From a virus, in the IMG/VR virus record IMGVR_UViG_3300049491_001027, positions 1-24,687 of that record: DNA of 24,687 nt, one strand, 5' to 3'. Every line of letters starts with the position of its first letter. The stretch's first letter is position 1. Shown here one piece after another: positions 5,662 to 20,915 of the stretch. The notes beneath the pieces are model-generated. The model was given only the letters and a program-made list of their open reading frames with translations, was not told where the DNA came from and did not search any database. The position numbers and the translations under genes are program-made.

Positions 5662-5666
5662 ACCCC

Positions 5667-7026: not shown

Positions 7027-7461
7027 ATGGGCGACGGCGCAATTCAGAATCCCTCCAATCGAATCCTCCTCGTCGGCACGCACAAGGTTACCGGCCGCAC
7101 GAAGGGCAACTACATCACCGCGATCGGGCCCGACCGCATCAGCGTCGACGTCGGCGTCGATGGGTTGGGCACGTTCATCGACAACGGCGACAACAGCATG
7201 TCGATCACGATCTCGCTGATGCCGAACAGCCCGAGCAACCTCGTGCTGTCGTCGATCTTCGCTGCGCGGCTGGCCGTCCCGGTCGTGCTCAAGGAGAAGA
7301 ACGGCACCACCGCAGGCGCCTGCGCGCGCGCGATGGTGACGAAGCGTGCGGACGTCGTGTGGAGCGACGGCAGCGAGTCCCGCGTGTGGGTGCTCGTGAC
7401 GCCCAACTGGCAGGGCGTCGTGGGTGACATGGATCCGGTCGAGCTCAACAGCGAGATCTAG
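7027..7461 (+). CDS. Tail tube protein, DUF3277-like
   Basis: 144 residues, the usual length for the DUF3277 tube family. GPDRISVDVGVDGLGTFIDN followed by SITISLMPNSPSNLVLSSIF matches the family's 'F........G..G......N.DKSG.ITI.L..TSPSN..L' core. VLKEKNGTT and RADVVWSDGS..RVWVLV follow. It forms the inner tube of the contractile tail. It sits 16 bp after the sheath gene and probably shares its transcript; the RBS is weak (GAGACC). Confidence 0.75.
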   Translation: MGDGAIQNPSNRILLVGTHKVTGRTKGNYITAIGPDRISVDVGVDGLGTFIDNGDNSMSITISLMPNSPSNLVLSSIFAARLAVPVVLKEKNGTTAGACARAMVTKRADVVWSDGSESRVWVLVTPNWQGVVGDMDPVELNSEI

Positions 7462-8258: not shown

Positions 8259-10073
8259 ATGGCAGCCGACACGGAGATCCTCGAGCGACTCATCGTCCGC
8301 ATCGGCTACGAGGTCGAGCCGGAGGGCCAGAAGAAGCTCGAGGGCGAGCGGCAAGCGTCGGCGACGAAGGCCGTCGCGATCGGCAACCTCATCAGCGCCG
8401 GCGTCCAGAAGGCGGCGGCGCTCGCCATGGATGCGGTGCAGGCGCTAGTCGGCGCGCTGGTCGACGCCGTGAAGGGATTCGCCGACACGGGCTCCGAGAT
8501 CGCCGACACGTCGAAGAAGCTCGGGATCGGGACGACCGAGCTGCAGCGGCTGCGCTACGCGGCGAAGCAGTCCGGCGTCGAGATGGGTTCGCTCGACGGC
8601 GCGATCGGGAAGTTCCAGAAGGGCTTGAGCGAGGCGCGGGCGAAGGGCACGGGCCCGCTGGTCGACGGGCTGGGCCAGATCGGCGTCAGGCTCGAGGAGC
8701 TCGACGGGCTGTCACCCGAACAGCAGTTCGGGCTGTTGGGCGACGCGATCGCGGGGATCAAGGAGCCGAGCGATCGCACCGCCGCCGCGATGGCGCTCTT
8801 CGGGAAGTCGGGCGCGGACCTGCTGCCGTTCCTCATGGAGGGCCAGGCGGGGATCGGGGCGCTCACGAAGCGCGCCGACGAGCTCGGGATCGTCATGTCG
8901 GAGTCGGCGGTCGGCGCCGCCGATGCGCTGGGCGACACGCTCGACGACCTCGACGCGGTCATCGGCGCGGCCGCGGGTCGCGTCGCCGGTGCACTCGCGC
9001 CAGCGATCACGGACATGGTCGGGAAGACCACCGAGTGGATCGCGGAGAACGACACATTCATCGAGCAGGACCTCCCCGCGGTCATCGAGTCGATCGTGTC
9101 GGCCGGAGCGTTCTTGCTGACGTGGCTGGTCGACGTGGTGGTCGAGTTTCGCAACTTCGGGAAGCTTGTGCGCGACACGAGCGACGACGTCGTCGCGTTC
9201 GTGGGCACGCTGACGGACGACCTCGAGCCTGCGATCTCGGCGGTGACGACGGTCGCCGAGGCGTGGGCCGATGCGTTCGCCACCGTCAACGAAGGCATCG
9301 GCGACGGCATCGCGAAGGTCCTCGACTACGTGGGCGTGCTCGACACGCTCAAGGCGGCATGGGAGGCGCTTCCGTTCACGGGAGAATCAATCGATGAGCT
9401 CACCGCGCGGCTGCACGGCGGCGGGCTGGTCGACTCCGTGCAGCGGTTCACCGGCGCGCGCGGACCCGTGCAGGGTGGTCGCGACGCCGACGGGAATCCG
9501 ATCTCCGTGAGCGGTCGCGCGACCGGTGGCCGAGCCGCCGGCGCGGGACGGGCGGGCGCAGCGATCGCGGCCGCGCTCGAGGACACCTCGAAACGGATCG
9601 TCGAAGACATCCAGGCGGCGAACCGCGCGGCGATGGGCGGCGGGTCGTCGTCGCGCGCGGCCGCCCGGGAGCGGTACCTCCGGCAGCAGCGGAACAAGGG
9701 CAAGGGCGGAGGCGGGTCGGCGGATGGTCCGTCGGGCAAGGAGACCCTTGGGAAGCTGTGGGAGGGCCTCACCGGCCAGCACGAGCCGACGTTCCTCGAC
9801 CGCGTCGGCTCGGCGCTCGGCATCGGCGGAGACGCCCCGCGCGGGACCATGAGCGGCGGGGGCGGCGGGTCGCCGCTCAGCGGCGCGGTGTTCAACCGGA
9901 TCGATGCGTCGTTCTCCCAGACGAATCACTTTGCGATCGAGCTGCCGCCCGGCCTGCAGAACGCCGCGGGGGCGAACCTCGCGGCGAGCGTCGCCGGCGC
10001 GGTGGTGGACAAGCTCGACGACGTCAACCGGCCCGTGTTCGCGCACTACCAGCAGGTCCTGCGCACGATCTAG
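8259..10073 (+). CDS. Tape measure protein
   Basis: 604 residues. The N-terminal half is helical and typical of phage tape measures: a hydrophobic Ala/Val region (~50-75), then KKLGIGTTELQRLRYAAKQSG, LDGLSPEQQFGLLGDAIAGI, AAMALFGKSGADLLPFL and LGDTLDDLDAVIGAAAGRVAG. These correspond to the family's repeated 'G.s..ELQ.L..Aa...G' and 'LFGksG.dLLP.L' motifs. A hydrophobic stretch near residues 280-295 may act as a membrane-contact segment. The C-terminus is Gly/Arg/Ser-rich and ends in ELPPGLQNAAGANLA. It sets tail length and passes DNA into the host. At roughly 1.5 angstroms per residue the tail would be about 90 nm, a rule-of-thumb estimate. Confidence 0.85.
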   Translation: MAADTEILERLIVRIGYEVEPEGQKKLEGERQASATKAVAIGNLISAGVQKAAALAMDAVQALVGALVDAVKGFADTGSEIADTSKKLGIGTTELQRLRYAAKQSGVEMGSLDGAIGKFQKGLSEARAKGTGPLVDGLGQIGVRLEELDGLSPEQQFGLLGDAIAGIKEPSDRTAAAMALFGKSGADLLPFLMEGQAGIGALTKRADELGIVMSESAVGAADALGDTLDDLDAVIGAAAGRVAGALAPAITDMVGKTTEWIAENDTFIEQDLPAVIESIVSAGAFLLTWLVDVVVEFRNFGKLVRDTSDDVVAFVGTLTDDLEPAISAVTTVAEAWADAFATVNEGIGDGIAKVLDYVGVLDTLKAAWEALPFTGESIDELTARLHGGGLVDSVQRFTGARGPVQGGRDADGNPISVSGRATGGRAAGAGRAGAAIAAALEDTSKRIVEDIQAANRAAMGGGSSSRAAARERYLRQQRNKGKGGGGSADGPSGKETLGKLWEGLTGQHEPTFLDRVGSALGIGGDAPRGTMSGGGGGSPLSGAVFNRIDASFSQTNHFAIELPPGLQNAAGANLAASVAGAVVDKLDDVNRPVFAHYQQVLRTI

Positions 10074-10085: not shown

Positions 10086-10646
10086 ATGGCGTTCGAGACC
10101 ATCGCGCAGGTGCTACGCCGGTCGACGCCGACCGTGTTCGGCGTGACGTCCATCGAGTTCGACTGCTCGATCTCCGAGGACCACGGCCTCGACGTCCAGC
10201 TGACCGAGAAGCCGATCGAGGGCGTGCCCGGCCAGACGTCCATCATCAGCGACCACGCGATCGTGCTCCCGCGACAGGTGACGCTCGTCGTCATCGCGAG
10301 CAACACGCCCGATCGGCTGCTGCCGTTCCAGATCACCCGCCACCTCCGGATCTGGCGACAGCTCCGCGACATGGCGGCGCGGGTCGAGGTGGTGGACATC
10401 GTGACGACGCTCGAGGTCTACACGAACATGGTCCTGCTCCGCGTCGGCGCGCCGCGCAACCGCGAGACCACGAACGCACTCGAGTTCACGATCGTCGCGC
10501 GCAAGGCCGAGTTCTCGCTGGTGACCGGCGTCACCCAGGAGCTCGCCGACGCGGTCTCCGAGATCGCCGCGGCCGAGGCGGATCTCGGGGCTCAGGGCAC
10601 GCAAGCGCAACAGATCGCGGACCTCGCGACGATGGGCGTAGTCTGA
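10086..10646 (+). CDS. Baseplate Dit-like protein
   Basis: 186 residues. Fits the Dit-like N-terminal domain family of contractile phages: VFGVTSIEFDCSISEDHGLD, then KPIEGVPGQTSIISDHAIVLP (family 'V....VEG...ISDH..'), VTLVVIASN, and the closing RVEVVDIVTTLEVYTNMVLL ('v.T.l..Y.NMvl'). The short Ala/Glu tail at 155-186 is helical. These proteins form the ring that joins the tube to the baseplate hub. It lies right after the tape measure and before the plug and hub, in the Pam3-like order. Confidence 0.75.
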   Translation: MAFETIAQVLRRSTPTVFGVTSIEFDCSISEDHGLDVQLTEKPIEGVPGQTSIISDHAIVLPRQVTLVVIASNTPDRLLPFQITRHLRIWRQLRDMAARVEVVDIVTTLEVYTNMVLLRVGAPRNRETTNALEFTIVARKAEFSLVTGVTQELADAVSEIAAAEADLGAQGTQAQQIADLATMGVV

Positions 10647-10775: not shown

Positions 10776-11153
10776 GTGGCACGCCGCACCGATGACCTCC
10801 TGGTGACCGCACCGCAGCGCGACAGCCGTCCGGCGGTGCGGTGGCGCCAGCTCCTCGATGGCCGGTGGTACGGCCTCCGGCTCGCGTGGAACGTCCGCGA
10901 TCGCCGGTGGTACATCGACATCTCGACGGACGCCGGAGTCGAGGTCGTGGTCGGCGTCGCGGTCGAGTCCGGGCTGGCGTTGTTCGGCGGCATCGTGCGC
11001 GACGAGCTGCCGCCGGGCCAGCTGTACGTCGACGACGTCGAAGGCCTCGGGCGCCCGCCCGACAGGTTCTCCTGGTCGTCGTTCTCGCGGATGTTCTACC
11101 GACCCGCCGCGGTGGTCGCCCTTGCGGCCGGGACGGCGGACGAGCTGCCATGA
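10776..11153 (+). CDS. Baseplate plug protein, Pam3 gp18-like
   Basis: 125 residues. A clear match to the Pam3 plug pattern: LLDGRWYGLRLAWNVRDRRW then YIDISTDAGVEVVVGVAVESG, LFGGIVRDELPPGQLYVDDVEG and SRMFYRP. The family signature is 'L.g..Y.l.l.wN.r...W.ldi.d..G..l..G..l..g.dLL.......p.G.L...D'. The protein closes the central channel of the baseplate before contraction. The GTG start is fixed by the -10-like box and by the next gene's ATGA overlap at the 3' end. Confidence 0.75.
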   Translation: MARRTDDLLVTAPQRDSRPAVRWRQLLDGRWYGLRLAWNVRDRRWYIDISTDAGVEVVVGVAVESGLALFGGIVRDELPPGQLYVDDVEGLGRPPDRFSWSSFSRMFYRPAAVVALAAGTADELP

Positions 11154-12199
11154 CTGCGGGCCCCATCGTCCAGCCCGGCCGGCAGTGGGGCCGCTCGGTC
11201 CGGGTCGTCGTGACGCCCCTGTCCGGGCTGCCGCCGATCGTGATCAACCCGGTGACGTACGCGCCCGGGGCTGGACCGCCGCCGCTGCACGTGAGCTTCT
11301 CCGTCGACAAGACGTTGACGAGTGAGCCGCAGCGCGGACGCGTGTCGATCACGAACCTCAGCAAGGCCACGCGCGACCTGCTCGCCGCCGTCGCGCGCAG
11401 TGGTCCGAACGTCTCGGCCGTCGGCGCGACCACGGACACCCGTGTGATCGCGACGACGCTCGTGCAGATCGAGGCGGGCTACCTCGGGCTCGCGCCCGGC
11501 GTGCTGCTCCGTGGCAACCTCACCGCAGCGCGGTCGAGGCACTACGGAACGGAGTGGGTGACGACGCTCGACGTCGGCGACACGGAGGCCGCGATCGCGA
11601 TGGCCGAGTGCCGACGGACGTTCGACGCGGGCACGCCCGCGCTCGCGGTGCTGACGTACGCCGCCAGCTGCATGGGCGTCGTGTCCGTGAGCGCGTCGGT
11701 GCCCGCGGCGATCTCCGCCTACGTCCTCGAGCGGGGGTTCGTCGCCTACGGCCGCGCGCGCGACACGATCGACGCCATCCTCGCCGGCGTCGCGCCCGAC
11801 CTCAGCCAACTCGGCTTCCTCGCGCGCGGCATCGCGATCGGTGCCGACCTGTGGGACGCGTTCGCGGGCAACGGCCCGCTCACGAACCCGATCGGGTGGT
11901 GGGTGGACGACGGCGCGATCTACTTCCTCGAGCGCGGCCTCGCCCTCCCGGCGCCGCCGGTGCTCGTGAGCGCGACGGCTGAGCCCGGCACCGTGCGCCT
12001 GGTCGAGCGGCCGGAGCGGCTCGAGGACGGCGCGATCCGGCTCGTGACGCTCCTCAACCCAGGCACCCGGCTCGGACGCCCGATCACCGTCGTGTCGCGC
12101 GAGCTGGCCGGCGCGTACCGGGTCGAGGCCGTCAGCCACACCGGCGACAACCGGGGCGGCGACTTCCTCACCACGGCGATCTGCCGGCCGCTGTTCTAG
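11150..12199 (+). CDS. Baseplate hub protein (gp27-type)
   Basis: 349 residues, starting in an ATGA overlap with the plug gene. The opening WGRSVRVVVTPLSGLPPIVI, then LHVSFSVDKTLTSEPQRGRV and SITNLSKATRDLLA match the N-terminal 'v.F.v.kt....n...v.I.NLs..tr..l' of contractile-tail hub proteins. The rest carries AGYLGLAPGVLLRGNLTAA, TLDVGDTEAAIA, NPIGWWVDDGAIYFLERG and SRELAGAYRVEAVSHTGDNR, like the gp27/gpD fold and its closing 'G.y.v..v.H.GD..g..w'. It forms the trimeric hub that carries the spike. The spike gene, which normally follows, is instead 7.6 kb downstream. Confidence 0.7.
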   Translation: MTAGPIVQPGRQWGRSVRVVVTPLSGLPPIVINPVTYAPGAGPPPLHVSFSVDKTLTSEPQRGRVSITNLSKATRDLLAAVARSGPNVSAVGATTDTRVIATTLVQIEAGYLGLAPGVLLRGNLTAARSRHYGTEWVTTLDVGDTEAAIAMAECRRTFDAGTPALAVLTYAASCMGVVSVSASVPAAISAYVLERGFVAYGRARDTIDAILAGVAPDLSQLGFLARGIAIGADLWDAFAGNGPLTNPIGWWVDDGAIYFLERGLALPAPPVLVSATAEPGTVRLVERPERLEDGAIRLVTLLNPGTRLGRPITVVSRELAGAYRVEAVSHTGDNRGGDFLTTAICRPLF

Positions 12200-12215
12200 G
12201 GGCCCCGCGCAGGTG

Positions 12216-12221
12216 TACCGT
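12216..12221 (+). promoter_or_regulatory. -10-like TACCGT, leaderless geometry for the gene at 12229
   Basis: TACCGT lies 7 nt before the GTG at 12229. A GGGGG run in the spacer could be read as a poor SD, so this case is less clear. Confidence 0.4.
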
Positions 12222-12228
12222 CGGGGGC

Positions 12229-12501
12229 GTGGCTCGCGTTACGGTCCATTGCGCCTCCCCCTCCTGCCCTTGGACCGGCCGCCGGCAACCCGGGGTGGTC
12301 CTCCCGTGCCCGAAGTGCCTCGGCCCGTGCGGCTCCAAGCCGCGCCCGACGCGCAAAGTGCGGGTGACCGTGCACTTCCCCGAGGACGACCTCGCCGCGC
12401 TCGGGCCCCCGAATCGCTGGCGAACAGCGATCCGGGCGGCCGTGGCTGCCGCGGCTGCGCTCGCCCGGGGTCCGTCGGCGGGTGGCGCGGACCCCGGCTG
12501 A
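12229..12501 (+). CDS. Zinc-ribbon plus possible ribbon-helix-helix small protein
   Basis: 90 residues. The N-terminal half has C8-x4-C13-P-W and C27-P-K-C30 plus C34, a likely zinc ribbon. The second half, KVRVTVHFPEDDLAALG then WRTAIRAAVAAAAALA, has a strand followed by two helices. This is the layout of ribbon-helix-helix DNA-binding domains. I infer a small nucleic-acid-binding regulator but cannot name a family. It is the first gene after the structural hub gene and lies directly upstream of the first of two similar promoters, so a local regulatory role is plausible. Confidence 0.6.
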   Translation: MARVTVHCASPSCPWTGRRQPGVVLPCPKCLGPCGSKPRPTRKVRVTVHFPEDDLAALGPPNRWRTAIRAAVAAAAALARGPSAGGADPG

Positions 12502-12502
12502 G

Positions 12503-12530
12503 TTGCCCTCTCGGACAACGCCCGTATACC
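12503..12530 (+). promoter_or_regulatory. Promoter P1 (TTGCCC-16-TATACC), copy 1 of a 28-bp element
   Basis: TTGCCC (12503-12508) and TATACC (12525-12530) are 16 nt apart; the ATG of the first operon 1 gene follows 6 nt later at 12537. The spacer shares CTCGG, CAACG and a CG before TATACC with the second copy at 15494-15521; 23 of 28 positions match. This is the best -35/-10 pair in the window. Confidence 0.7.
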
Positions 12531-12536
12531 GGGTGC

Positions 12537-13190
12537 ATGCCCGACCCGAAATACCTCATCGACCGCGAGGACCCGTTCCTCCTGTCCATCGCCCGGCGCG
12601 CGGCCCTGCTGTACGCGTCCGGCTACACCGAACGGACGGCGCTCGACGCCGCGATCATGTGCGTCGCGCGTGACGAGATGTCGATCGAACAGATGGAGCG
12701 GCTCAGCTCCGGCTCGAGTCGCGACGCGTGCGAGCGAATCCTCGCGCGGTTGATCGACGAAGGATTCCCGACGATTCCACGGCCGGCCATCCCGGGCACG
12801 AACCTCACGCGCGAGGAGGTGCGCAACGCGCTGGACTACGTGGCGCGCATGCACGGCGGACCCACGGCCGCGGCCCTCGCCGCGCTGTCCACCCGGCTCG
12901 GCGGACCCGCCGCGGGCGTGTCGCACCTGGCCGCCGCGTTGTCGGGTCGACGCCCCGCGGACGCGGTCGAGCTCGACGACGCGAACGAACTCTCCCGCGT
13001 GCTGTCGGAGGGAGCCGTCGCGGACGACGACGCCGATTGCCTGTTCACGGACATCCTCCTCGAGAAGCCCGGCTTCGGCGCGACGCCGGAGCGCGTCCTC
13101 CGTGCAGCCGTCGACGATGACCGGCTGTGGGCCGTGCTGCTCAAGGCCCGCGAGATCCGCGTCGCTGCGCGCGATGGGGAGGCGACGTGA
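12537..13190 (+). CDS. Unknown 217-aa protein, first gene of operon 1
   Basis: 217 residues. Start fixed by promoter P1 six bases upstream. The sequence is largely helical: PFLLSIARRAALLYASGYTE, MSIEQMERLSSGSSRDACER, TREEVRNALDYVARMHGG, an Ala-rich central part, then an acidic EGAVADDDADCLFTDILLEK and DDDRLWAVLLKAREIRVA. No transmembrane segment or signal peptide. No known family recognised. The stop overlaps the GTG of the polymerase X-like gene (GTGA), with a GGGGAGG SD inside its last codons, so the two are coupled and may work together. Confidence 0.75.
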   Translation: MPDPKYLIDREDPFLLSIARRAALLYASGYTERTALDAAIMCVARDEMSIEQMERLSSGSSRDACERILARLIDEGFPTIPRPAIPGTNLTREEVRNALDYVARMHGGPTAAALAALSTRLGGPAAGVSHLAAALSGRRPADAVELDDANELSRVLSEGAVADDDADCLFTDILLEKPGFGATPERVLRAAVDDDRLWAVLLKAREIRVAARDGEAT

Positions 13191-13783
13191 AGCTCCCCGA
13201 TGCACTCAACGCCGCGGCGCGCATGCGCATGCGGATCGCCGACGCGCTGCGCGTCGCGCTCGGTGCGGCCGAAAGCGTGCCGTCGTGGCAGTCGCACGTA
13301 CTGCTCGCGGGCTCGGTGCGACGCGGCGTTCTCGACGTCGGAGACATCGACCTGATGGTCGTCGTCCCGGACGCCGCGCTCCCCGTCGCGACCACGGCCG
13401 TCGCGTCCGCGGGCATGCGCTCCGAGATCGACTACAGCTACAAGGGCGGTGGAGACATCGTTCGGCTGTACCACCACGACGCCAAGTTCGACGTGCGGTT
13501 GACGACGCCGCTCGTCGCCGGCGCGACGTGGCTGTGGCTCACGGGCTGCCGCGAGTTCGGCCGGTCGCTCGAGGCGATGGCGACCGCGAAGGGCTGGACG
13601 TTCACCGCCGACGGCGTGCACGACCTCCAGACCAAGCAGCTCGCGACCCGATGCGATGGGGAGCTGCAGCTCCTGCAGGCGCTCACGGACGGGTGGTGGG
13701 TCGCGCCGCACGAGCGCGTGGCCGCCTTCGAGCTGTGCACCCGCAAGCGCTTCGGCGCCGCGGTCGAAACGAGGCGGCCATGA
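13187..13783 (+). CDS. Minimal family X DNA polymerase-like nucleotidyltransferase
   Basis: 198 residues, GTG start with GGGGAGG five bases upstream. Contains the Pol X palm: LLAGSVRRG (39-47) and GDIDLMVVVP (52-61) give the G-S-x-R-R-G motif and two metal-binding aspartates, D53 and D55. KFDVRL (100-105) gives the third, D102. WLWLTGCREFGRSLEAMATA then KGWTFTADGV matches the Pol beta 'YFTG...FN..MR..A...G..INEYG' thumb. The end GELQLLQALTDGWWVAPHER resembles the 'e.e....LgL.yipPelR' close. The lyase and finger (HhH) domains are absent, so it is palm plus thumb only, like the very small ASFV Pol X (174 aa). Expected activity is short-gap filling or nucleotide transfer. An MNT-type nucleotidyltransferase is the alternative but lacks these thumb motifs. 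Confidence 0.75.
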   Translation: MKLPDALNAAARMRMRIADALRVALGAAESVPSWQSHVLLAGSVRRGVLDVGDIDLMVVVPDAALPVATTAVASAGMRSEIDYSYKGGGDIVRLYHHDAKFDVRLTTPLVAGATWLWLTGCREFGRSLEAMATAKGWTFTADGVHDLQTKQLATRCDGELQLLQALTDGWWVAPHERVAAFELCTRKRFGAAVETRRP

Positions 13784-14148
13784 CGTACGACGTCACGACC
13801 CCCGAAGGGGCCAAGGCGACCGCGCTCGCCGGCGACCAGCGCTACCTCGCCGAGCTCGTGTGTCGTCGGCTCGTCACAACCGGGCCGACCAGCTGGGCGC
13901 CTCGCGTGAAGCTCGTCCCGTCCGGCGCGCGGATGCTCGCCCGCGTGCACGTCGGCTTCGGCCTCGACTCCTACCTGTACGTCACGCCCGAGGGGCTCGT
14001 GCGGTACGCGTCCGCGGTCCCGCCACGCTGGCGCCCGGCCATCTCGGCGGCGCTGCTCGACCTCGGTGTCCTCGATCTGACGCCCAGCCGCACGGGCGGC
14101 GTCGTCACCGGTCAGCCTTCACGCTTCAACCCGAGGAGCGCCCGATGA
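13780..14148 (+). CDS. Unknown 122-aa protein, operon 1
   Basis: 122 residues. Starts in an ATGA overlap with the polymerase gene, SD GAGG. The N-terminal helix PEGAKATALAGDQRYLAELV is followed by a beta-rich middle (WAPRVKLVPSGARMLARVHV, FGLDSYLYVTPEGLVRYASA) and PRWRPAISAALLDLG. No recognisable family, no cysteine pairs, no membrane segment. Coupling to the polymerase suggests a shared role but nothing in the sequence defines it. Confidence 0.65.
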   Translation: MTYDVTTPEGAKATALAGDQRYLAELVCRRLVTTGPTSWAPRVKLVPSGARMLARVHVGFGLDSYLYVTPEGLVRYASAVPPRWRPAISAALLDLGVLDLTPSRTGGVVTGQPSRFNPRSAR

Positions 14149-14357
14149 ACTACCCACGCATGACCGTCGAGGAGCTCGTGAAGTACCACGAGATGAAGGT
14201 CGCCACCTACAAGGCGATCAAGCAACGCGAGATCGAGCGCAGCCCGGAGCTGAACGACGTGTCGGGGAGGCGCATCGATCACGCGAGCTACCGCGAAGCG
14301 TTCCACCTGCGCGCGGTCGAGTTCCTCCGCACCGTCGCACCGAGGGCCGGACAATGA
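14145..14357 (+). CDS. Unknown 70-aa protein, operon 1
   Basis: 70 residues, ATGA overlap at both ends, SD GAGGAG. Charged and helical: MTVEELVKYHEMKVATYKAI, KQREIERSPELNDVSGRR, then YREAFHLRAVEFLRTV. Contains several spaced histidines. Looks like a small helical or coiled-coil adaptor; function not assignable. Confidence 0.6.
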   Translation: MNYPRMTVEELVKYHEMKVATYKAIKQREIERSPELNDVSGRRIDHASYREAFHLRAVEFLRTVAPRAGQ

Positions 14358-14521
14358 TCCTCGGCAACCGCATCCACTTCGCCGCGCTGGTCCTGTCCGG
14401 CGCGGTGCTGTCCGCCGCATGCTTCGGCATCGGAACGACCATCCACATCCTCGCTGGCTGCGCGACCGCATTCGCGATCGCGTGGCTCGTCACCCAATGC
14501 CACCGCGGCCCCGCCGCCTGA
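14354..14521 (+). CDS. Small membrane protein with two predicted transmembrane helices
   Basis: 55 residues, starting in an ATGA overlap with GAGGG seven bases upstream. Opens MILGNRIHF; the hydrophobic stretches ALVLSGAVLSAACFGIG (about 10-26) and IHILAGCATAFAIAWLV (about 30-46) look like a two-helix hairpin with short polar ends (QCHRGPAA). It overlaps the gene before and ends 8 bp before the lipoprotein. A small holin is one option, but the endolysin is over 4 kb away in another block. A membrane partner for the lipoprotein is another. Both are guesses. Confidence 0.6.
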   Translation: MILGNRIHFAALVLSGAVLSAACFGIGTTIHILAGCATAFAIAWLVTQCHRGPAA

Positions 14522-14529
14522 AAGCCACC

Positions 14530-15081
14530 ATGAAGACCACGACCACCATTGCCCTCATCGCCCTCCTCTCGGCCTGCAGCTCGGCCGACCCACCACCCAA
14601 CACGACGACCGGGCCCACGACGTCCACCGTCGACGACAGCACCGACACCACCGCGGACGACAGCACCGACACCACGACCGACACGACCGACACCACGACC
14701 GGCAGCGGTTCGAGCGACGACGGATCGAGCTCGGACGACGGCAGCACCTCGAGCACCGGCGCGGCCGCGGTGTGCGAGGTGACGTTCCAGCCGTGGGATC
14801 CGTGCACGCCCGGCTGCGGCTGCGACGACGGGACGACGTGCCTCATCGGACACACCGCCGACGCGGGTTACCTGGCCTTCTGCGCGGCGCCGTGCGAAGC
14901 CGACGCCGACTGCCTGCCCGACCCCGACGGGCGCGCGACGTTCTGCGCCACGTCGGCGAACCTCAGCCGCTGCGCCGTGGCGTGCACCGCCGCGACCGAG
15001 GCGACCGACTGCCCGAGCGGGTGGCACTGCTACGAGTCGGGTCTCGCTGCGCCCGCGCGCTGCATGCCGGAGGTCCCATGA
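14530..15081 (+). CDS. Cys-rich surface lipoprotein with Thr/Ser/Asp linker
   Basis: 183 residues. Residues 1-16 form a lipoprotein signal (MKTTTTIALIALLSAC) with an LSAC lipobox and lipidation at C16. Residues 17-77 are a low-complexity Thr/Asp/Ser/Gly linker, partly made by a 24-bp tandem repeat. The C-terminal ~100 residues have 14 cysteines, in motifs such as PCTPGCGCDDGTTC, FCAAPCEADADC and DCPSGWHC, so a disulfide-knit surface domain is likely. This architecture is common in predicted lipoproteins of Myxococcota but unusual inside a phage tail operon. It may be made by the infected or lysogenic cell, for example for receptor masking or superinfection exclusion (inferred). The RBS is weak (GAAAG). 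Confidence 0.8.
   Translation: MKTTTTIALIALLSACSSADPPPNTTTGPTTSTVDDSTDTTADDSTDTTTDTTDTTTGSGSSDDGSSSDDGSTSSTGAAAVCEVTFQPWDPCTPGCGCDDGTTCLIGHTADAGYLAFCAAPCEADADCLPDPDGRATFCATSANLSRCAVACTAATEATDCPSGWHCYESGLAAPARCMPEVP
14632..14679 (+). repeat. 24-bp tandem repeat, two copies, within the lipoprotein linker
   Basis: Copies at 14632-14655 and 14656-14679 are near identical (both begin GACGACAGCACCGACACCAC), and a degenerate GACAC..GACAC..ACGACC third part follows to 14700. They encode the Asp/Thr/Ser linker, and such repeats change length easily by slippage. Confidence 0.7.
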
Positions 15082-15497
15082 GGACGCTCGCGGTCGCAAG
15101 CACGACGACGTGGTACTCGATCGCGGACAACACCGAGGCGCTCGCCGTCGGTGGCGTCGGTGCGCTTGTTCGTGTCTCTGGAGGGCCGTCGACGACGTTC
15201 GTCCCCGGCGTCGTCGTCAAGCCCACTGGGGAACCGCACCACGGATGGGCGAAGCTCGTTCCGGCAGATCTGAGCCTTCGTTACCGCGAGCTCGCGAACG
15301 CGATCGGTCGTCGCGAGGAGGAGATCCGCGCGGAGGAGCGGCACGCCGCCACGAAGGCGTCCGCGATCCTCCGCGTTCCCACGGACGAATGGCGGTCGAT
15401 GGCCGAGCGACTCGCGGAAGAGCTCGTCGGGATCCAGACGGCCAAGGGCATGCCCGACGACGAACTCCGTCGGCTCCTGCTGTCGTTCATCGCTTGA
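15078..15497 (+). CDS. Unknown 139-aa protein, last gene of operon 1
   Basis: 139 residues, ATGA overlap with the lipoprotein and a strong GGAGGT SD. The N-terminal ~65 residues are beta-rich (TTWYSIADNTEALAVGGVGA, VRVSGGPSTTFVPGVVVKP), the rest helical and charged (RYRELANAIGRREEEIRAEE, WRSMAERLAEELVGI). No family recognised. Its TGA stop lies inside the -35 of promoter P2, so operon 2 begins immediately after it. Confidence 0.65.
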   Translation: MRTLAVASTTTWYSIADNTEALAVGGVGALVRVSGGPSTTFVPGVVVKPTGEPHHGWAKLVPADLSLRYRELANAIGRREEEIRAEERHAATKASAILRVPTDEWRSMAERLAEELVGIQTAKGMPDDELRRLLLSFIA

Positions 15498-15521
15498 CCG
15501 CTCGGGCAACGGGCGTATACC
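15494..15521 (+). promoter_or_regulatory. Promoter P2 (TTGACC-16-TATACC), copy 2 of the 28-bp element
   Basis: TTGACC (15494-15499) and TATACC (15516-15521), spacing 16, as in P1; 23 of 28 positions agree with P1, including CTCGG, CAACG and CGTATACC. The ATG at 15539 has a short leader and an AGGA site, so this copy is not leaderless, unlike P1. Confidence 0.75.
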
Positions 15522-15538
15522 ACCACGACGAGGACAAC

Positions 15539-15754
15539 ATGCGCGTTTGCCACCACTGCCACCGACCCGCCCGGGTCATCGATCCCGACGTCGTCGAGCT
15601 GTGCGTGAGCGCGGGCGTCGACCTCCTGCGCGCCGGCGGCAGCATCGACGACGCGGTCGAGCACGCGGTCTCGTTCGTCCCGGTGCCCTCCGCGGCCCAC
15701 CGGGCGACGCTCCGCGTGGCCCTCGAGCGCCGGGCGGGAGGCTTCCATGGCTGA
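15539..15754 (+). CDS. Small zinc-finger-like protein, first gene of operon 2
   Basis: 71 residues. N-terminal C4-x2-C7 (MRVCHHCHRPARV) with extra histidines, a further C22, then a helical region (VSAGVDLLRAGGSIDDAVEH, AAHRATLRVALERRAGG). Looks like a small zinc-binding regulatory or adaptor protein. No family identified. Start chosen because it follows P2 with an AGGA SD; it overlaps the next gene by 8 bp. Confidence 0.6.
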   Translation: MRVCHHCHRPARVIDPDVVELCVSAGVDLLRAGGSIDDAVEHAVSFVPVPSAAHRATLRVALERRAGGFHG

Positions 15755-16016
15755 CGCCGTGCGGTGCACCGACTGCGGCGGGCTCGTGCTGTGGGTGGCC
15801 GACCACCGCGGGCGCCGGGTGGCGATCGACGCCCTCGGGATCCCGGCGGTCATGGCGCTGTCGTTCACCCTCCCGCCCGCCGACGTGAGGATAGAGGGGT
15901 TCAGCGCGACGGGAGATCTCCTCGTGGGCAGATCTCCCGTCGGCGACGAGCTGCCGACCGGCATCCTTCACCTGGCCCACGCGCGCACGTGCAAGGAGGC
16001 CCGTGCCCGCGCGTGA
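15747..16016 (+). CDS. Small zinc-binding protein, operon 2
   Basis: 89 residues, SD GGGAGG five bases upstream. CTDCGG near the N-terminus and HARTCKEARA at the C-terminus give a C-x2-C...H-x3-C set, a zinc-site pattern seen in small phage and actinobacterial proteins of unknown role. Between them is a hydrophobic beta region (VLWVADHRGRRVAIDALGIP, LSFTLPPADVRIEGF). The region 15907-15942 within this gene is a perfect 13-bp inverted repeat. Function unknown. Confidence 0.6.
   Translation: MADAVRCTDCGGLVLWVADHRGRRVAIDALGIPAVMALSFTLPPADVRIEGFSATGDLLVGRSPVGDELPTGILHLAHARTCKEARARA
15907..15942 (+). repeat. Perfect 13-bp inverted repeat (hairpin), inside a coding gene
   Basis: CGACGGGAGATCT (15907-15919) and AGATCTCCCGTCG (15930-15942) are exact reverse complements around a 10-nt loop. 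The left arm with two loop bases contains the palindrome GGAGATCTCC (15912-15921), and the right arm contains AGATCT. It lies 61 bp before the gene for the winged-helix protein. Confidence 0.75.
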
Positions 16017-16335
16017 GCGCGACGCGTCGCCGTCGGCGTTGCGCGTGCTCGAGACCATGGCGACGTTCGCCGCCGCGTACGGATCGCCGCCGTCCGTGCG
16101 TCGCGTCGGCCACCTCCTCGGGATCGGCGTGCACGCGGTGCACCGCCACCTCCTCGCACTCGAACGCGTCGGCCTCGCTGGTCGTCGGCTCGAGTCCGCT
16201 GGGCTCCGGCACTGGGACGTCACGCCGGCCGGGCACGAACGGCTGCGCCACGGGAGCGGGACGTGTGCCGCCCCGCGGTGGCCGTGGATCGTCGACGCAC
16301 CCGAGGAGCGGGCGTCGTGCGAGGCGTTCGGATGA
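16003..16335 (+). CDS. LexA-type winged helix-turn-helix DNA-binding protein
   Basis: 110 residues, GTG start with AAGGAGG only 3 nt upstream, overlapping the previous gene. The N-terminal ALRVLETMATFAAAYGSPPS, then VRRVGHLLGIGVHAVHRHLL and ALERVGLAGR align by eye with the LexA N-terminal winged helix (helix, 'G.PPTVREIA..LG..S..TV..HL..LE.KG.I'). The C-terminal ~45 residues are a Trp/His/Arg-rich tail with no Ser/Lys autoprotease site, so this is not a self-cleaving LexA. It is likely a phage transcription regulator, perhaps acting on P1 and P2, though that link is speculative. Confidence 0.7.
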   Translation: MPARERDASPSALRVLETMATFAAAYGSPPSVRRVGHLLGIGVHAVHRHLLALERVGLAGRRLESAGLRHWDVTPAGHERLRHGSGTCAAPRWPWIVDAPEERASCEAFG

Positions 16336-16529
16336 ACTCCCGCAACCCGATCGCGTGGCGGATGCGGCTGGGCTCCGAGCTCGCCGCGATGACGCGCGAA
16401 CGCGTGGAGCTCCGCATCGGAGGCGTCCGCGTTGTCGAGGTCCGCCCCGCAGCGCACGGACAGCCGGCGGCGCTGCTCGTCAGTTTCGCCCCGATCGTGC
16501 CATGCGAAGAACCCGACTCCGACCCGTGA
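16332..16529 (+). CDS. Unknown 65-aa protein, operon 2
   Basis: 65 residues, ATGA overlap with GAGG seven bases upstream. Sequence NPIAWRMRLGSELAAMTRER, then VELRIGGVRVVEVRPAAH and QPAALLVSFAPIVPCEEPD suggests a helix plus a small beta hairpin. No family recognised. It overlaps the HNH gene by a GTGA. Confidence 0.5.
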   Translation: MNSRNPIAWRMRLGSELAAMTRERVELRIGGVRVVEVRPAAHGQPAALLVSFAPIVPCEEPDSDP

Positions 16530-16849
16530 ACCCGAAGCGCCGCGCGGAGACGTTCGCGCGGGACTTCGGGCCCCAGTCCCGGCGATGCCGCGGACTCCCG
16601 TGCTGCGTGTGCGTGTGGACGCGCGCGCGGCAGACCACGCCGACCGAACCGCACCACGAGCCGCCGCGCTCGAGAGGCGGTGAGGACCGCGACACGATGC
16701 CCTTGTGCGAGGCGCACCACGCCGAACGACACGCCCGTGGCGCCGCCGAGTTCTGGCGTCGCCACGGGCTCAACCCTCACCACGTGCTCGAAGCCGTACG
16801 GCTGGGCACGCCCACACCCGGAGACCCGAACGATGCAATCCCCTACTGA
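16526..16849 (+). CDS. HNH endonuclease-like protein (DUF968/Ref-like)
   Basis: 107 residues from a GTG in a GTGA overlap; an in-frame ATG at 16502 is the alternative start. Contains CRGLPCCVC, then EPHHEPPRSRGGEDRDTMPL and CEAHHAERHARGAAEFWRRH. The 'HH....RGG.D....PLC..HH...H..G...F...G' layout is that of zinc-bound HNH nucleases such as DUF968 or the phage P1 Ref type; the first HH would hold the catalytic histidine. It may nick or resolve DNA. HNH genes in phages often sit by the terminase, so a place in this island is less usual. Confidence 0.7.
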   Translation: MNPKRRAETFARDFGPQSRRCRGLPCCVCVWTRARQTTPTEPHHEPPRSRGGEDRDTMPLCEAHHAERHARGAAEFWRRHGLNPHHVLEAVRLGTPTPGDPNDAIPY

Positions 16850-17219
16850 CCCACGATTCAACGGACACCGCCAGCTCACCCCCGACGACGTCGCCAAGGT
16901 GCTGGGCCAGGACCCGCAACCTCCGATGCGCCAGCCCGATCCACCGGCGATCGCACCGACCGCCAAGTCGCTCGCGGTCGTGACGGCCGAGGCCTTCGAG
17001 CGGGCGCTCGCTGCCGCTGACCGGTGGCCGCCGTACAACTCGGCACACGAGGCGCTGGGCGTCGCGTTGGAGGAGTTCGAGGAGCTCAAGGCGGAGATCC
17101 TCAAACAGCAGAACGCCCGATCGGTGTCGGCGATGCGGAGCGAGGCGCTGCAGCTCGCCGCCGTGATGCTGCGCATCGTGGCGCAGATCGACTCGGACTC
17201 GCGGTGGGTGCTCCGATGA
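16833..17219 (+). CDS. MazG-like/phage nucleotide pyrophosphatase-type protein
   Basis: 128 residues. Start overlaps the HNH gene by 17 bp with CGGAGA about 8 nt upstream. The N-terminal ~50 residues are Pro-rich and probably flexible. The C-terminal helical part, YNSAHEALGVALEEFEELKA, then NARSVSAMRSEALQLAAVML and RIVAQID, fits the phage pattern 'S.HE...V..EE..EL......R....MR.EA.Q.AA...R...D'. This resembles MazG all-alpha pyrophosphatases. The EE..E motif is present, but the second acidic pair (E..D) reads EALQ, so activity is uncertain. Confidence 0.55.
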   Translation: MQSPTDPRFNGHRQLTPDDVAKVLGQDPQPPMRQPDPPAIAPTAKSLAVVTAEAFERALAAADRWPPYNSAHEALGVALEEFEELKAEILKQQNARSVSAMRSEALQLAAVMLRIVAQIDSDSRWVLR

Positions 17220-18046
17220 GCGACGGAACCGGCATCGAATGGACGGACGCGACGTGGAATCCGGTCCGCGGCTGCACGAAGGTATCTCCGGGCTGCAAGC
17301 ACTGCTACGCCGAGACGTTCGCCGAGCGTTGGCGCGGTACGCCCGGCCACGCGTACGAACAAGGCTTCGACCTGCGGCTCGTCCCGTCGTTGCTCGACCA
17401 GCCGCTCCGGTGGACGCGGCCGCGTCTCGTGTTCGTCAACAGCATGTCGGACCTCTTCCACGTCGGCGTCCCCGTCGAGTACGTGGCCGACGTTTTCGAC
17501 GTGATGGCCGCGGCGTCGTGGCACACGTTCCAGGTGCTGACGAAGCGCGCAGACCGGATGCGAGCGTTCTCCGTGGTGAGAGAGGGGAGCCCGGTTGACG
17601 GCAACGTCAATCCGCCATCCGGCAACGTGTGGCTTGGGGTCAGCGTCGAGGACCGCAAGTACGGTGTCCCGCGCATCGAGGAGCTCCGCCAGACCGTCGC
17701 CGCCGTCCGGTTCCTTTCGATTGAGCCGCTGCTCGAGGACCTGGGCGACGTCGACTTGAGCCACATCGACTGGGCCATCGTCGGCGGCGAGAGCGGGGCC
17801 GGTGCGCGTCCCATCGATCCCGTGTGGGTTCGTCGGCTGCGCGACCAGTGCAGCGAGCATGGCGTCGCGTTCTTCTTCAAGCAGTGGGGCGGCTTGCAGA
17901 AGAAGATCGCTGGGCGGCTGCTCGACGGCGTCACGCATGACGCGATGCCGACGATCAAGCAGCACGCGATCCCACCGCTCGACGATCGCCGCCGGGCGCT
18001 GCGGTTCGCGACCGCTGCCGCGCAACGCTGGGCGGTGGCGCGATGA
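17216..18046 (+). CDS. DUF5131 family protein (phage Gp37/Gp68), Cys-motif
   Basis: 276 residues. An ATGA overlap sets the start. Signature GIEWTDATWNPVRGCTKVSP then GCKHCYAE has cysteines C20, C27 and C30 (C-x6-C-x2-C), which define the family; it resembles radical SAM clusters but with different spacing. RWTRPRLVFVNSMSDLFH, WHTFQVLTKRADRM, NVWLGVSVED, VRFLSIEPLLEDLG, IDWAIVGGESGAGARPID and GVAFFFKQWGG are the conserved barrel motifs in order. Length matches the family. An iron-sulfur enzyme is likely but the reaction is not established. The TcmP partner often found with it is not seen here. Confidence 0.85.
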   Translation: MSDGTGIEWTDATWNPVRGCTKVSPGCKHCYAETFAERWRGTPGHAYEQGFDLRLVPSLLDQPLRWTRPRLVFVNSMSDLFHVGVPVEYVADVFDVMAAASWHTFQVLTKRADRMRAFSVVREGSPVDGNVNPPSGNVWLGVSVEDRKYGVPRIEELRQTVAAVRFLSIEPLLEDLGDVDLSHIDWAIVGGESGAGARPIDPVWVRRLRDQCSEHGVAFFFKQWGGLQKKIAGRLLDGVTHDAMPTIKQHAIPPLDDRRRALRFATAAAQRWAVAR

Positions 18047-18636
18047 TCGGCTCCGAGTTCACCGCACCGCCGGACCCGTTGCTGTGGCGGTTCGTCGAGT
18101 GCCCCGACGAGTGCAACGAGCCGCACCCCTTCATGAACACCGGGGCGCTGTGCTCACGCGGCCACGAGATCGACCCGTGCCAAGGGTGCGCCGCATGGGG
18201 CGAGGGTTGCGGCGCCATCTACGAGCTGCGCGGGCCCGACCGCGACAAGGAGTCGGTGCGCTCGCTCGGGGTCCTCCTGAGCGCCGTCGCCGGCGACGTA
18301 CTGGCGGAGCGGTACCCGTCGACGCAGGAGGGCGTGTCGGCGCTCGCAGGTGCGATCGCGCGGCTGATGCCGACCGGGCTCGTCATCACGGCGGATCCCG
18401 GCACGTCGGTCGAGGTGACATGCAGCGAGCCGGCGATCCCGCGGCTGCAGCAGGTGCCCAGCGGCGTCGGATGGCGCGCTGCCCGACGTCGCCGTCGGCA
18501 CCGTCGCCGCCTGCTCAAAGCGATTGCGCGCGGCGTGTACCTGACGCCGCGGCGATCGTCGGCGCGCCTGTCCGTCGGTGGAACGCTGGCGCTCGGGCTC
18601 GAGGCGCAGCGGTTCGCCGTCGACGTCGTCGTGTGA
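18043..18636 (+). CDS. Unknown Cys-rich N-terminus/basic C-terminus protein, end of operon 2
   Basis: 197 residues, ATGA overlap with the DUF5131 gene. Residues ~15-65 hold seven cysteines and two histidines (ECPDECNEPHPF, LCSRGHEIDPCQGCAAWGEG, C), a likely zinc or iron-sulfur site. The middle is helical. The C-terminal ~60 residues are strongly basic (RAARRRRRHRRRLLKAI), suggesting nucleic acid binding. Family not recognised. Coupling to DUF5131 suggests it could be its partner, which is inference. Confidence 0.55.
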   Translation: MIGSEFTAPPDPLLWRFVECPDECNEPHPFMNTGALCSRGHEIDPCQGCAAWGEGCGAIYELRGPDRDKESVRSLGVLLSAVAGDVLAERYPSTQEGVSALAGAIARLMPTGLVITADPGTSVEVTCSEPAIPRLQQVPSGVGWRAARRRRRHRRRLLKAIARGVYLTPRRSSARLSVGGTLALGLEAQRFAVDVVV

Positions 18637-18643
18637 ACCCGCG

Positions 18644-18649
18644 TAGGGT
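18644..18649 (+). promoter_or_regulatory. -10-like TAGGGT before the endolysin gene
   Basis: TAGGGT lies 7 nt before the ATG at 18657. The following GGTGG could also act as an SD, so leaderless use is less certain here. Confidence 0.4.
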
Positions 18650-18656
18650 GGTGGCC

Positions 18657-19442
18657 ATGCTCACCACCAGCAGCCTCATGCTGCGCGCGTTCCTCGAAGC
18701 CGCGGCGAAGCTGACCGGCGACCACCTCGAACAGCGCACGACACCGGAGGTCCTCGGCTTCGACACCACGTCGATGCCGGTGGACCTCGAGCACGTTCCA
18801 ACGATCCGCGATGCGTCGTCGGTCACCGTGCTGACCGCACACGTGAGCGACGTCGCCGGCGGCTTCGGCGTGGCAAAGCAGGCGGTTGCGCGGTGGCGAC
18901 GGTGGCTCGAACAGGGGAAGGTCCCGGCCGAGCTCGTCCGCCAGCTGCCCGACCCGACGGACCTCGGCGGTTCGAGCTTCCTCCTCGCCCTCCTCGAGCG
19001 GTACAGCCGGGCGCCGTACCACCGGATCGGCTCGCGCCGCGCGGGGAACATCCGCAATCACCCGACGACGCTCCGCACCGCGCACGGCAACGGCGGCAAC
19101 CTCGGCAACGGCTGGGCGCTCGACTGCGGGCACAAGGAGACGCTGACCGACGAGCTGATCCGCGTCGGTCGGGCGTCGTTCGCCGACGCGGTCGCCGACG
19201 TCGTCGAAGCCGGCGGTTCGTGCGTCGTCGTGCCGCACCGCGTGTGGGCGGCCGATCGCCGCGTCGACACTTCGGCGGCGGTGTGGCTGCACATCGTGAA
19301 GGCGACCGTCCTCGAGCTGCAGCGTGTCGGCGTCCCGGTTCGCATCGGCTACAACACGAGCGCCGGCGGCGGGCTGCCGATCCCGCGTTCGTGGGATCCC
19401 GACGCGCTCTACGACGATCGCGGCCGAGTCATCGCGGCTTGA
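18657..19442 (+). CDS. N-acetylmuramoyl-L-alanine amidase-type endolysin
   Basis: 261 residues, no signal peptide. Shows the Amidase_2 layout: SVTVLTAHVSDVAGGFGV (H62, the 'H.T....GGFGv' opening), YHRIGSRRAGNIRNHP (Y121-H122), TLRTAHGNGGNLGNGWALD (H143, the 'Ha...N..siGi.l' strand), and VVVPHRVWAADRRVDTSAAV (H194, D204, 'HR......DPG'). Zinc ligands are probably H62, H194 and D204. The reaction would be cleavage of the amide bond between N-acetylmuramic acid and L-Ala in peptidoglycan. It lies after the accessory island and before the spike, so it is a lysis gene or possibly a tail-associated muralytic enzyme. The lack of an export signal implies release by a holin. Confidence 0.75.
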   Translation: MLTTSSLMLRAFLEAAAKLTGDHLEQRTTPEVLGFDTTSMPVDLEHVPTIRDASSVTVLTAHVSDVAGGFGVAKQAVARWRRWLEQGKVPAELVRQLPDPTDLGGSSFLLALLERYSRAPYHRIGSRRAGNIRNHPTTLRTAHGNGGNLGNGWALDCGHKETLTDELIRVGRASFADAVADVVEAGGSCVVVPHRVWAADRRVDTSAAVWLHIVKATVLELQRVGVPVRIGYNTSAGGGLPIPRSWDPDALYDDRGRVIAA

Positions 19443-19474
19443 CTCGCCGCGCGGCGCGCTGGCACGCTCGCGCA

Positions 19475-19801
19475 ATGCCCACGATCGCCAAGCGCCTCCT
19501 CCTCCTCGCTCGTCGGATCGGCCGATGGATCCTCGAGCGGCTGTCCCGCCGCGGCGTCACGATGCTGATCGGGTACATGTCCGGGAAGGTCGACGACTTC
19601 CGTCGGCGGCTCGCCGCGGCGAAGAAGCGGGGGAACGCTCGCCGCGTCGGGTGGCTCACCGGGCGCATCAGCCGATGGTCCGCGGCCGTGCGCTTCCTCG
19701 TGAGGCACCAGCAGGAGATCCTCGACTCCGTCATCCGCGAGGCGGAGGCGCTCGCGTCCCGGCTGCCGCTCGTGTCCGACCTCGAGCGCGAGGCGGCGTG
19801 A
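19475..19801 (+). CDS. Small very basic protein after the endolysin
   Basis: 108 residues. The ATG is preceded at 6 nt by CACGCT, a weak form of the -10-like motif (not TAnnnT). The N-terminus is amphipathic and rich in Arg and Leu (KRLLLLARRIGRWILERLSR), then GVTMLIGYMSGKVDDFRRRL and a helix to the C-terminus. No complete transmembrane segment is obvious. It could be an accessory lysis protein such as a membrane-acting amphipathic peptide, or a structural adaptor for the spike, whose gene it overlaps by GTGA. No family is recognised. Confidence 0.5.
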   Translation: MPTIAKRLLLLARRIGRWILERLSRRGVTMLIGYMSGKVDDFRRRLAAAKKRGNARRVGWLTGRISRWSAAVRFLVRHQQEILDSVIREAEALASRLPLVSDLEREAA

Positions 19802-20514
19802 CGGACGCGACCGAGCTCGACAAGGTGAAGGCCCTCGAGCGGGCCATACTCGCGCGCGCGCGCACGTGGCTCCCCGGCGAGGTGGTGAGCTACGACAGCG
19901 CCACCGGTCGGGCCTACGTCCGCGTTGGTCTCACCGGCCAGACGCCGACGCCGGTCGGTACCCTCGTCGACCCGCCGACGATCCTCCCGAACGTGCACGT
20001 TGCGTGGCTGCGTGGCGGCGGGTCGGGCGTGTCCGGGACGTTGCTCCCGAACGACCCCGGGATCCTGCTGTTCTCGCACCGCGGGATCGACCCGTGGCTC
20101 GTCGCCGGCGGGACGGTACCGCTCACGAGCGACCGCAGCCACGAGCTGATCGATGCGGCGTTCGTGCCCGGGCTAGGGCCGCTCGTCCGCCCCCCGCCGA
20201 TCGCCGCTGCGGCCGCGATGCAGGTCGGCCGCGAGGACGGGACGAACACGCTGGCGCTCACCCACGCGGGCGCGGCTGCGGTCGCGACGCTGACCTCCGA
20301 CGCCGTGCTCCTCGGCAGCGCGGCGGCCGTGTCGGCGGTCGCGCTGGCCGACCAGATCCACGCGTACCTGGTCGCGATGTTCACCGCGGCGAACATCGCC
20401 GGATCGGCGAACGTCGGCGCGGCAGCGGGCGAGGTCGAAGCTGACGCCTGCCTGGCGTACCTCGGAGCCCACCCCTTCGCCGAGTTTGCGGCGACCCGGG
20501 TCCGCGCGTTGTGA
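19798..20514 (+). CDS. Baseplate central spike protein (Gp138 N-terminal-like)
   Basis: 238 residues, GTGA overlap with the small basic gene, SD GAGG. The OB-fold pattern of Gp138-type spikes is present: PGEVVSYDSATGRAYVRVGL, PTPVGTLVDPPTILPNVHVA, LRGGGSGVSGTLLPNDPG, ILLFSHRGIDPWLVAGGTVP, RSHELIDAAFVPGLGPL. This last part is the family's 'R.HdlsDa..vpGl.P'. The C-terminal ~85 residues are Ala-rich with beta-helix-like TNTLALTHAGAAAVATLTSD. It sits at the tip of the baseplate and punctures the host envelope. Normally it follows the hub gene directly; here the island separates them. Confidence 0.75.
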   Translation: MTDATELDKVKALERAILARARTWLPGEVVSYDSATGRAYVRVGLTGQTPTPVGTLVDPPTILPNVHVAWLRGGGSGVSGTLLPNDPGILLFSHRGIDPWLVAGGTVPLTSDRSHELIDAAFVPGLGPLVRPPPIAAAAAMQVGREDGTNTLALTHAGAAAVATLTSDAVLLGSAAAVSAVALADQIHAYLVAMFTAANIAGSANVGAAAGEVEADACLAYLGAHPFAEFAATRVRAL

Positions 20515-20520
20515 TCCGGC

Positions 20521-20526
20521 TAGCAT
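20521..20526 (+). promoter_or_regulatory. -10-like TAGCAT, leaderless geometry for the wedge gene
   Basis: TAGCAT lies 6 nt before the GTG at 20533. No SD. This favours GTG 20533 over the ATG at 20539. Confidence 0.55.
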
Positions 20527-20532
20527 CTCCGG

Positions 20533-20913
20533 GTGTCGATGTTCAGCACCCACCCGGAGACCGGCGAGCTCGTGCGCGTCGGCGGCTCGTTCGTTCGCGT
20601 CACCGGCGAAGAGGAGATCCTGCAGGCGGTGCGCTGCCGGTGGCGCATCATCCGGGGCGAGGTGATTCTCGCGCCGTCCGCTGGCGCCGACTGGATTGGT
20701 CTCCTGCAGGAGGGCACGCCATCCCAGCGGATCGAGCAGGCCCTGGCCGAGGAAGCGCTCGCGGTGCCGGGCGTCGTCGCAGCCGAGATCGGGGAGCTGA
20801 CGCTCGACGCCGCGACGCGGCGCGGCTCCGTCGAGGCGTCGCTCCTCGCTGACCTCGGCGACCAGCGCCGGCGCGTGCGGCTGTCCGACACCTTCACCCG
20901 GAGGGCGGAGTAG
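20533..20913 (+). CDS. Baseplate wedge protein (gp25/GPW-like)
   Basis: 126 residues. The core EEILQAVRCRWRIIRGEVIL, APSAGADWIGLLQEG, IEQALAEEALAVPGVVAAEI and GELTLDAATRRGSVEASLLAD fits the gp25/gpW pattern (helix, 'GE...d...G..w...l', then 'i...i..vpGV..v'). It forms part of the baseplate wedge that seeds sheath assembly. Three bases separate it from the baseplate J gene, and a strong SD (GGAGGGCGGAG) for J lies in its end. Confidence 0.75.
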   Translation: MSMFSTHPETGELVRVGGSFVRVTGEEEILQAVRCRWRIIRGEVILAPSAGADWIGLLQEGTPSQRIEQALAEEALAVPGVVAAEIGELTLDAATRRGSVEASLLADLGDQRRRVRLSDTFTRRAE

Positions 20914-20915
20914 CC

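Follow-up and report, generated by a model that had tools for sequence, protein, structure and literature searches.

In the parts of PMC4728585 that deal with it, Llp of the phages T5 and BF23 is described as a receptor-blocking lipoprotein, which is made in the infected cell from a gene adjoining the receptor-binding gene. The Myxococcus prophage-like Mx-alpha elements bear lipoprotein genes whose products act between cells (SitA; PMC5562445, PMC10047993). In Myxococcus lipoproteins, Lys+2 / Ala+7 are the marks of inner-membrane retention (PMC5562445). Among 528 surveyed spanin systems, no o-spanin had more than 4 Cys and the u-spanins had none (PMC6139136).

Here we describe a Cys-rich lipoprotein gene located among the tail genes of a phage. 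The DNA analysed (the window) is the IMG/VR record IMGVR_UViG_3300049491_001027 at its full length of 24,687 bases; the record was classed as a virus, and the GC content of the window is 71%. By sequence comparison, the relatives of the phage lipoprotein are chromosomal lipoproteins of Nannocystales, which is the order name given in the NCBI taxonomy for Nannocystis and Enhygromyxa.

The lipoprotein gene and its place in the tail operon

The features of the window are listed in Table 1. The product of 14530-15081 begins with MKTTTTIALIALLSAC16SSADPPP, in which the lipobox L13-S14-A15-C16 satisfies the pattern [LVI][ASTVI][GAS]C. When the six frames of the 24.7-kb window were scanned with fixed signal-sequence rules, this was the only lipoprotein-like start. 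The product contains 15 Cys in total, namely C16 and the 14 Cys of residues 82-178. The sorting residues are Ser at +2 and Pro at +7. Since the retention marks known from Myxococcus (rule from PMC5562445) are absent, placement of the phage lipoprotein in the outer membrane is predicted with fair confidence. The structure prediction from the single sequence was poor, with a mean pLDDT of 49.

The original prediction had described a lipobox at C16, a Thr/Ser/Asp linker with a 24-bp tandem repeat, a 14-Cys domain, and a phage operon around the gene. The translation agreed with it on the lipobox (LSAC), the linker (82% T/S/D/G over 65 aa) and the 14 Cys, with the refinement that 12 Cys are common to the host family and two are extra. 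The repeat was recovered by Tandem Repeats Finder. The operon setting was also confirmed, with head, sheath, tube-like, tape-measure and hub genes before the lipoprotein gene and wedge genes after it, all on the + strand.

Table 1. Positions of the phage genes and of the lipoprotein features in the window
Feature	Position	Strand	Basis or remark
Major head protein	1554-2660	+	phrog_264
Sheath	5577-7010	+	phrog_205
Virion structural protein, tube position	7027-7461	+	
Tape measure	8259-10073	+	
Dit-like/tail fibre protein	10086-10646	+	
Baseplate hub, left flank of accessory island	10841-12199	+	phrog_196, E 6e-37
Accessory island between hub and baseplate genes	12213-19800	+	comparison with related phage; borders approximate
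55-aa protein, two hydrophobic segments	14354-14521	+	hydropathy
Cys-rich lipoprotein gene, 183 aa	14530-15081	+	ORF, translation; homology to Nannocystales lipoprotein family
Predicted type II signal peptide and lipobox LSAC, predicted lipidated Cys16	14530-14577	+	sequence
Thr/Ser/Asp/Gly-rich linker, 65 aa, T/S/D/G 82%	14578-14772	+	composition
24-bp tandem repeat within linker, 3.2 copies, 84% matches	14624-14696	+	Tandem Repeats Finder
Cys-rich domain, residues 82-178, 14 Cys	14773-15063	+	sequence, alignment with host family
ATGA, lipoprotein stop overlapping next start	15078-15081	+	sequence
139-aa soluble protein, coupled to lipoprotein	15078-15497	+	
DUF5131 (phage Gp37/Gp68 family) gene, cargo	17024-18046	+	closest relatives in Polyangia genomes
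Baseplate wedge genes, right flank of accessory island	20533-22367	+	phrog_120, phrog_6, Baseplate_J

Judged by the family searches of its proteins, the window is a contractile-tail phage, and its structural genes lie on the + strand throughout. Protein searches found no viral-contig relatives of the head, sheath and wedge proteins. The tape measure matched one viral contig (L128). At E <= 0.01, the stretch of L128 that was compared first had nothing else in common with the window, and a further part of this contig gave a single marginal 27-aa match.

The lipoprotein gene is carried in an accessory island. In a related contractile phage region of a Nannocystales genome (L240, in G098), the gap between the hub and wedge genes is about 1.5 kb and contains one gene, whereas the corresponding gap in the window is 8.3 kb, i.e., ~7 kb more. 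Besides the lipoprotein and the 55-aa membrane protein, the island contains a polymerase-beta-like nucleotidyltransferase, small ORFs, DUF5131, and one protein each of the HTH and HNH-like types. The frame at 13127-13783 weakly matched the palm and thumb domains of DNA polymerase beta and is probably a nucleotidyltransferase. A small protein encoded at 16003-16335 has a LexA-like DNA-binding domain just below the Pfam cut-off and is a possible repressor.

The gene for the 55-aa protein ends 8 bases upstream of the lipoprotein gene; its product had no family match and might be holin-like or act as a small membrane partner. On the other side, the lipoprotein gene is, as read from the ATGA overlap, translationally coupled to the gene for the 139-aa protein, for which neither a family match nor a homologue in 317 Polyangia genomes was found. 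The region of the island is an unbroken + strand operon of uniform composition, and a scan for sites of the sigma-70 type found no promoter-like or terminator-like site in 12100-20600. Because of this lack of sites of its own and the ATGA overlap, the lipoprotein gene appears to be cargo read with the tail operon. The suggestion in the original prediction that it could be a moron was thus not upheld in the strict sense of the term.

A different lipoprotein gene was noticed on a related contractile-phage contig of another Nannocystales genome (L125:14745-15236, - strand, contig G097:C182). Its 163-aa product has a MAGC lipobox and no Pfam match. The gene lies antisense where the tape measure and the tail gene that follows it are 1.3 kb apart, whereas these two genes are separated by 12 bases in the window. 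Two Nannocystales-linked contractile phages thus each have a tail-module lipoprotein, and the two lipoproteins are of different kinds.

A 12-Cys lipoprotein family in Nannocystales

The phage lipoprotein had no match in PHROGs and Pfam and only chance-level matches in NCBIfam and PDB. As a single query, it gave no confirmed relative in viral contigs, bacterial genome contigs, phages and plasmids. Myxobacterial genomes were entered via the conserved MglA as a taxonomic anchor, with an MglA query that was used only for reaching these genomes; this led to Nannocystis bainbridge (G001) and two Enhygromyxa salina (G002, G003). When the full phage protein was searched against 317 Polyangia genomes, weak matches were obtained in six genomes, with a best E of 1.8e-5. 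Four of the Polyangia matches spanned the linker through the Cys domain.

Five host frames (L083, L084, L086, L089 and L090) were found to have the same layout as the phage protein, with a signal peptide/lipobox, a T/S linker and a Cys-rich C-terminal domain. The alignment of the phage domain with these five frames contained 12 invariant residues, including ten Cys and a CPxG motif. The profile made from the six sequences, the phage row included, matched 143 of the 317 genomes at E <= 0.001. At E <= 1e-10, it matched 27 of the 29 Nannocystales genomes and 4 of the 288 others (hand count); the 29 are Nannocystis, Enhygromyxa and 26 others (G001-G003 and G096-G121). With a broader profile, for which up to 150 candidates were scored per genome, all 29 Nannocystales genomes matched, 2-28 times each. 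Nannocystis and Enhygromyxa were the named genomes that matched the family profile, and there was no match in the named Myxococcus, Corallococcus, Hyalangium, Anaeromyxobacter, Sorangium, Geomonas, Geobacter and Nitrospirota genomes.

Nearly all of 58 host domains had 12 Cys, and a few had 13. A strict rule placed a lipobox before 39 of these domains, although it missed clear cases such as L100 and L101. The linkers ahead of the first domain were 5-170 aa long and consisted mostly of 50-85% T/S/D/G/E. Linker length also differed, by some residues, when close orthologues within the Nannocystis group were compared. This variation in the host family fits the idea in the original prediction that the repeat-bearing linker of the phage protein could vary in length. 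Some host proteins had two or three Cys domains in tandem; in L133 and L137, three tandem 12-Cys domains follow one lipobox.

In the phage domain, 12 of the 14 Cys aligned with the host family, and the two extra ones are C82 and one of C96/C98. In two alignments, phage C8 to C94 (alignment numbering) and P78 were invariant, and G80 and the other Cys were nearly so. The CPxGM-type motif of the host family is CPSGW in the phage. A host profile of 34 domains, from which the phage row was left out, scored the phage domain at 37.9 bits; the host set had originally been collected with a profile containing the phage row, which is a mild bias. By comparison, 2000 Cys-fixed shuffles of the phage domain had a mean of 4.5 bits (sd 4.4) and a maximum of 21.2 bits, and none of the 2000 scored above the phage domain. 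Since 37.9 bits lies beyond the shuffle maximum, the homology goes beyond Cys spacing. The phage gene is therefore very likely a diverged member of the Nannocystales 12-Cys lipoprotein family. In the tree, the phage copy was on a branch of 3.45 changes per site and its fork was open; because of this very long branch and the two extra Cys, its nearest relative cannot be named.

The first six-sequence alignment contained no stretch with sufficient conservation to scan a collection with. A closer host-family alignment scanned against viral contigs and a host-family domain searched against the phage collection found no relative. Pfam, NCBIfam and PDB hold no curated family for the 12-Cys lipoproteins, and weak matches of the host family in the curated libraries included WAP-like domains. 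In the literature searched, no paper combined Nannocystis with Cys-rich lipoproteins, and none dealt mainly with Nannocystis phages.

Host of the phage

On a 17-kb contig of one Nannocystales genome (G097), relatives of the head, sheath and tape-measure proteins, with 24-28% identity, follow one another as they do in the window. Sheath relatives were present in two Nannocystales genomes, G097 and G098. The DNA of the DUF5131 gene was 72-74% identical to Polyangia genes, that of Nannocystis bainbridge among them; besides Nannocystis bainbridge, two of the best eight DNA matches were in Nannocystales. At the protein level, the best Polyangia relative of DUF5131 had 66% identity, compared with 63% for the best viral copy found. 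In 80 viral loci with DUF5131, nothing but DUF5131 was common to the window, and there was no member of the 12-Cys family. The linker DNA gave many short matches in Nannocystales, but it is of low complexity. A search for spacer-like matches with half of the DNA of the window was swamped by DUF5131 and low-complexity matches.

Taken together, the head, sheath and tape-measure relatives, the DUF5131 relatives and the lipoprotein make a Nannocystales host likely. The host of the phage is thus probably a member of Polyangia, with Nannocystales as the likely order, and the Myxococcota host of the original prediction was borne out in this narrower form. The check it proposed on the nearest homologues also came out positive, since these are host-encoded.

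Candidate role and comparison with described systems

The lipoprotein probably modifies the envelope of the infected cell. Judging from the operon layout, it would be made with the late genes. Its motif and composition suggest Sec-dependent export, lipidation at Cys16 and retention in the outer membrane, where the flexible acidic Thr/Ser/Asp linker would keep a disulfide-locked domain off the membrane. The domain might then bind and shield an envelope component that serves the phage family as receptor, which would protect the infected cell from super-infection and keep the released virions from being lost on debris. By analogy, receptor shielding in the manner of T5 / BF23 Llp is the likeliest of the roles considered, although it falls somewhat short of probable. 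Late expression would be better suited to protecting virions after their release than to early exclusion. What would be shielded is guesswork in this phage, for which neither a receptor nor a receptor-binding protein is known. Nor can a function be carried over to the phage copy from the host relatives, as they are functionally uncharacterised.

An alternative that we consider unlikely is that the lipoprotein is social or lifestyle cargo, which would be expressed from a prophage or in a long infection and alter an envelope trait of the host, such as cell-cell contact, predation or kin recognition, with a gain for the phage that does not lie in adsorption itself. The Mx-alpha lipoprotein genes are a precedent for it, the host 12-Cys family is multi-copy and of a surface type, and the tail-module lipoprotein gene of L125, on the opposite strand of its contig, is also in its favour. 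However, no toxin domain and no recognisable immunity gene were found, no integrase or other evidence of lysogeny was seen in the 24,687-base fragment, and the lipoprotein gene stands in a late operon without a promoter-like site of its own. A SitA toxin was rejected because Pfam and NCBIfam revealed no C-terminal toxin/nuclease domain, and the domain present is that of a multi-copy chromosomal family.

We also considered whether the gene is a neutral passenger, i.e., a host lipoprotein gene that was acquired through recombination and retained although it does nothing for the phage. The window was the single viral record with the 12-Cys family among the viral records searched, and other cargo is present in the same island. 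Nevertheless, the frame is intact, all 12 family Cys were kept despite strong divergence, the GC3 of the gene (0.93) is similar to that of the phage structural genes, and the gene is translationally coupled to the next one. These four features point to long residence under selection, which makes a neutral passenger distinctly unlikely.

A lysis protein, in which an o-spanin-like outer membrane lipoprotein would act with the two-segment protein encoded just upstream, is very improbable. Outer membrane lipoproteins of Gram-negative phages are often spanins, and the position of the 55-aa gene would suit such a pair. However, the 14 Cys of the phage domain, against at most 4 in the survey (PMC6139136), led us to reject it. 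Moreover, hydropathy showed no C-terminal membrane segment, which excludes a u-spanin. Among the window proteins searched, there was no endolysin family match and no neighbour built like an i-spanin, with a single membrane segment at the N terminus and a domain in the periplasm; and the homologues are chromosomal host genes.

The position among tail and baseplate genes could also suggest that the protein is part of the virion, for instance one that acts in adsorption or is associated with the tail, and merely resembles a lipoprotein. This was rejected as highly improbable, because the protein has a full type II signal peptide and its homologues, host-encoded on chromosomes, are all lipoproteins and none is a virion protein; the related contractile phages also lack the gene at the equivalent place. 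An assembly chimera, in which a piece of host chromosome was joined to the phage contig, is scarcely credible, for although the family is chromosomal elsewhere and the record is a metagenomic contig, the gene is tightly packed between phage ORFs in a continuous + strand operon of uniform composition, and its ATGA-coupled neighbour is without a match in the Polyangia genomes.

Modification of the infected-cell envelope is the reading that we prefer, and it provides a concrete candidate for how such phages alter the envelope of a predatory bacterium. The analysis links an orphan contractile phage to Nannocystales and defines a lipoprotein family that is absent from the curated libraries and present in every sampled Nannocystales genome. 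If the phage copy does shield a receptor, it would offer a handle on the role of this large host family. A wider scenario, which must be regarded as quite improbable, is that Nannocystales phages recruit 12-Cys host lipoproteins into their tail operons and remodel the envelope with them; the expansion in the hosts may then have been shaped by phage adsorption, in an arms race that uses these proteins either as receptors or as shields.

Compared with the spanins, the phage protein is likewise a phage lipoprotein, probably of the outer membrane, but it differs in its Cys content (14 against at most 4), in having no partner and in having host homologues (PMC6139136). TIGR04201 (Myxo_Cys_RPT) resembles the host family in being Cys-rich and myxobacterial, and it weakly matched 3 of 12 host-family domains (best E 0.0016); in contrast, the phage protein itself had no match to it at E up to 1, and the full protein had none up to E 10. 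Like the SitA toxins of the Mx-alpha prophages, the phage protein is a lipoprotein on a myxobacterial phage-like element, with sorting residues that predict the outer membrane by the absence of Lys+2 / Ala+7 (PMC5562445). It differs from them in having no toxin domain or recognised immunity gene and in its conserved chromosomal Cys-rich domain. With Llp of T5 / BF23, it shares that it is a phage-encoded lipoprotein whose expected site is the infected cell's outer membrane. However, the parts of PMC4728585 that treat Llp describe no Cys-rich domain; furthermore, an adjacent receptor-binding gene is known there, whereas no counterpart is known here (PMC4728585). Finally, the phage copy differs from the Nannocystales family in being phage-borne, in its two extra Cys and in its 22-31% identity to the host domains, and the host proteins are often longer; in common with the family, it has the lipobox signal, the T/S/D/G linker and the C-terminal 12-Cys domain with a CPxGM-type motif.
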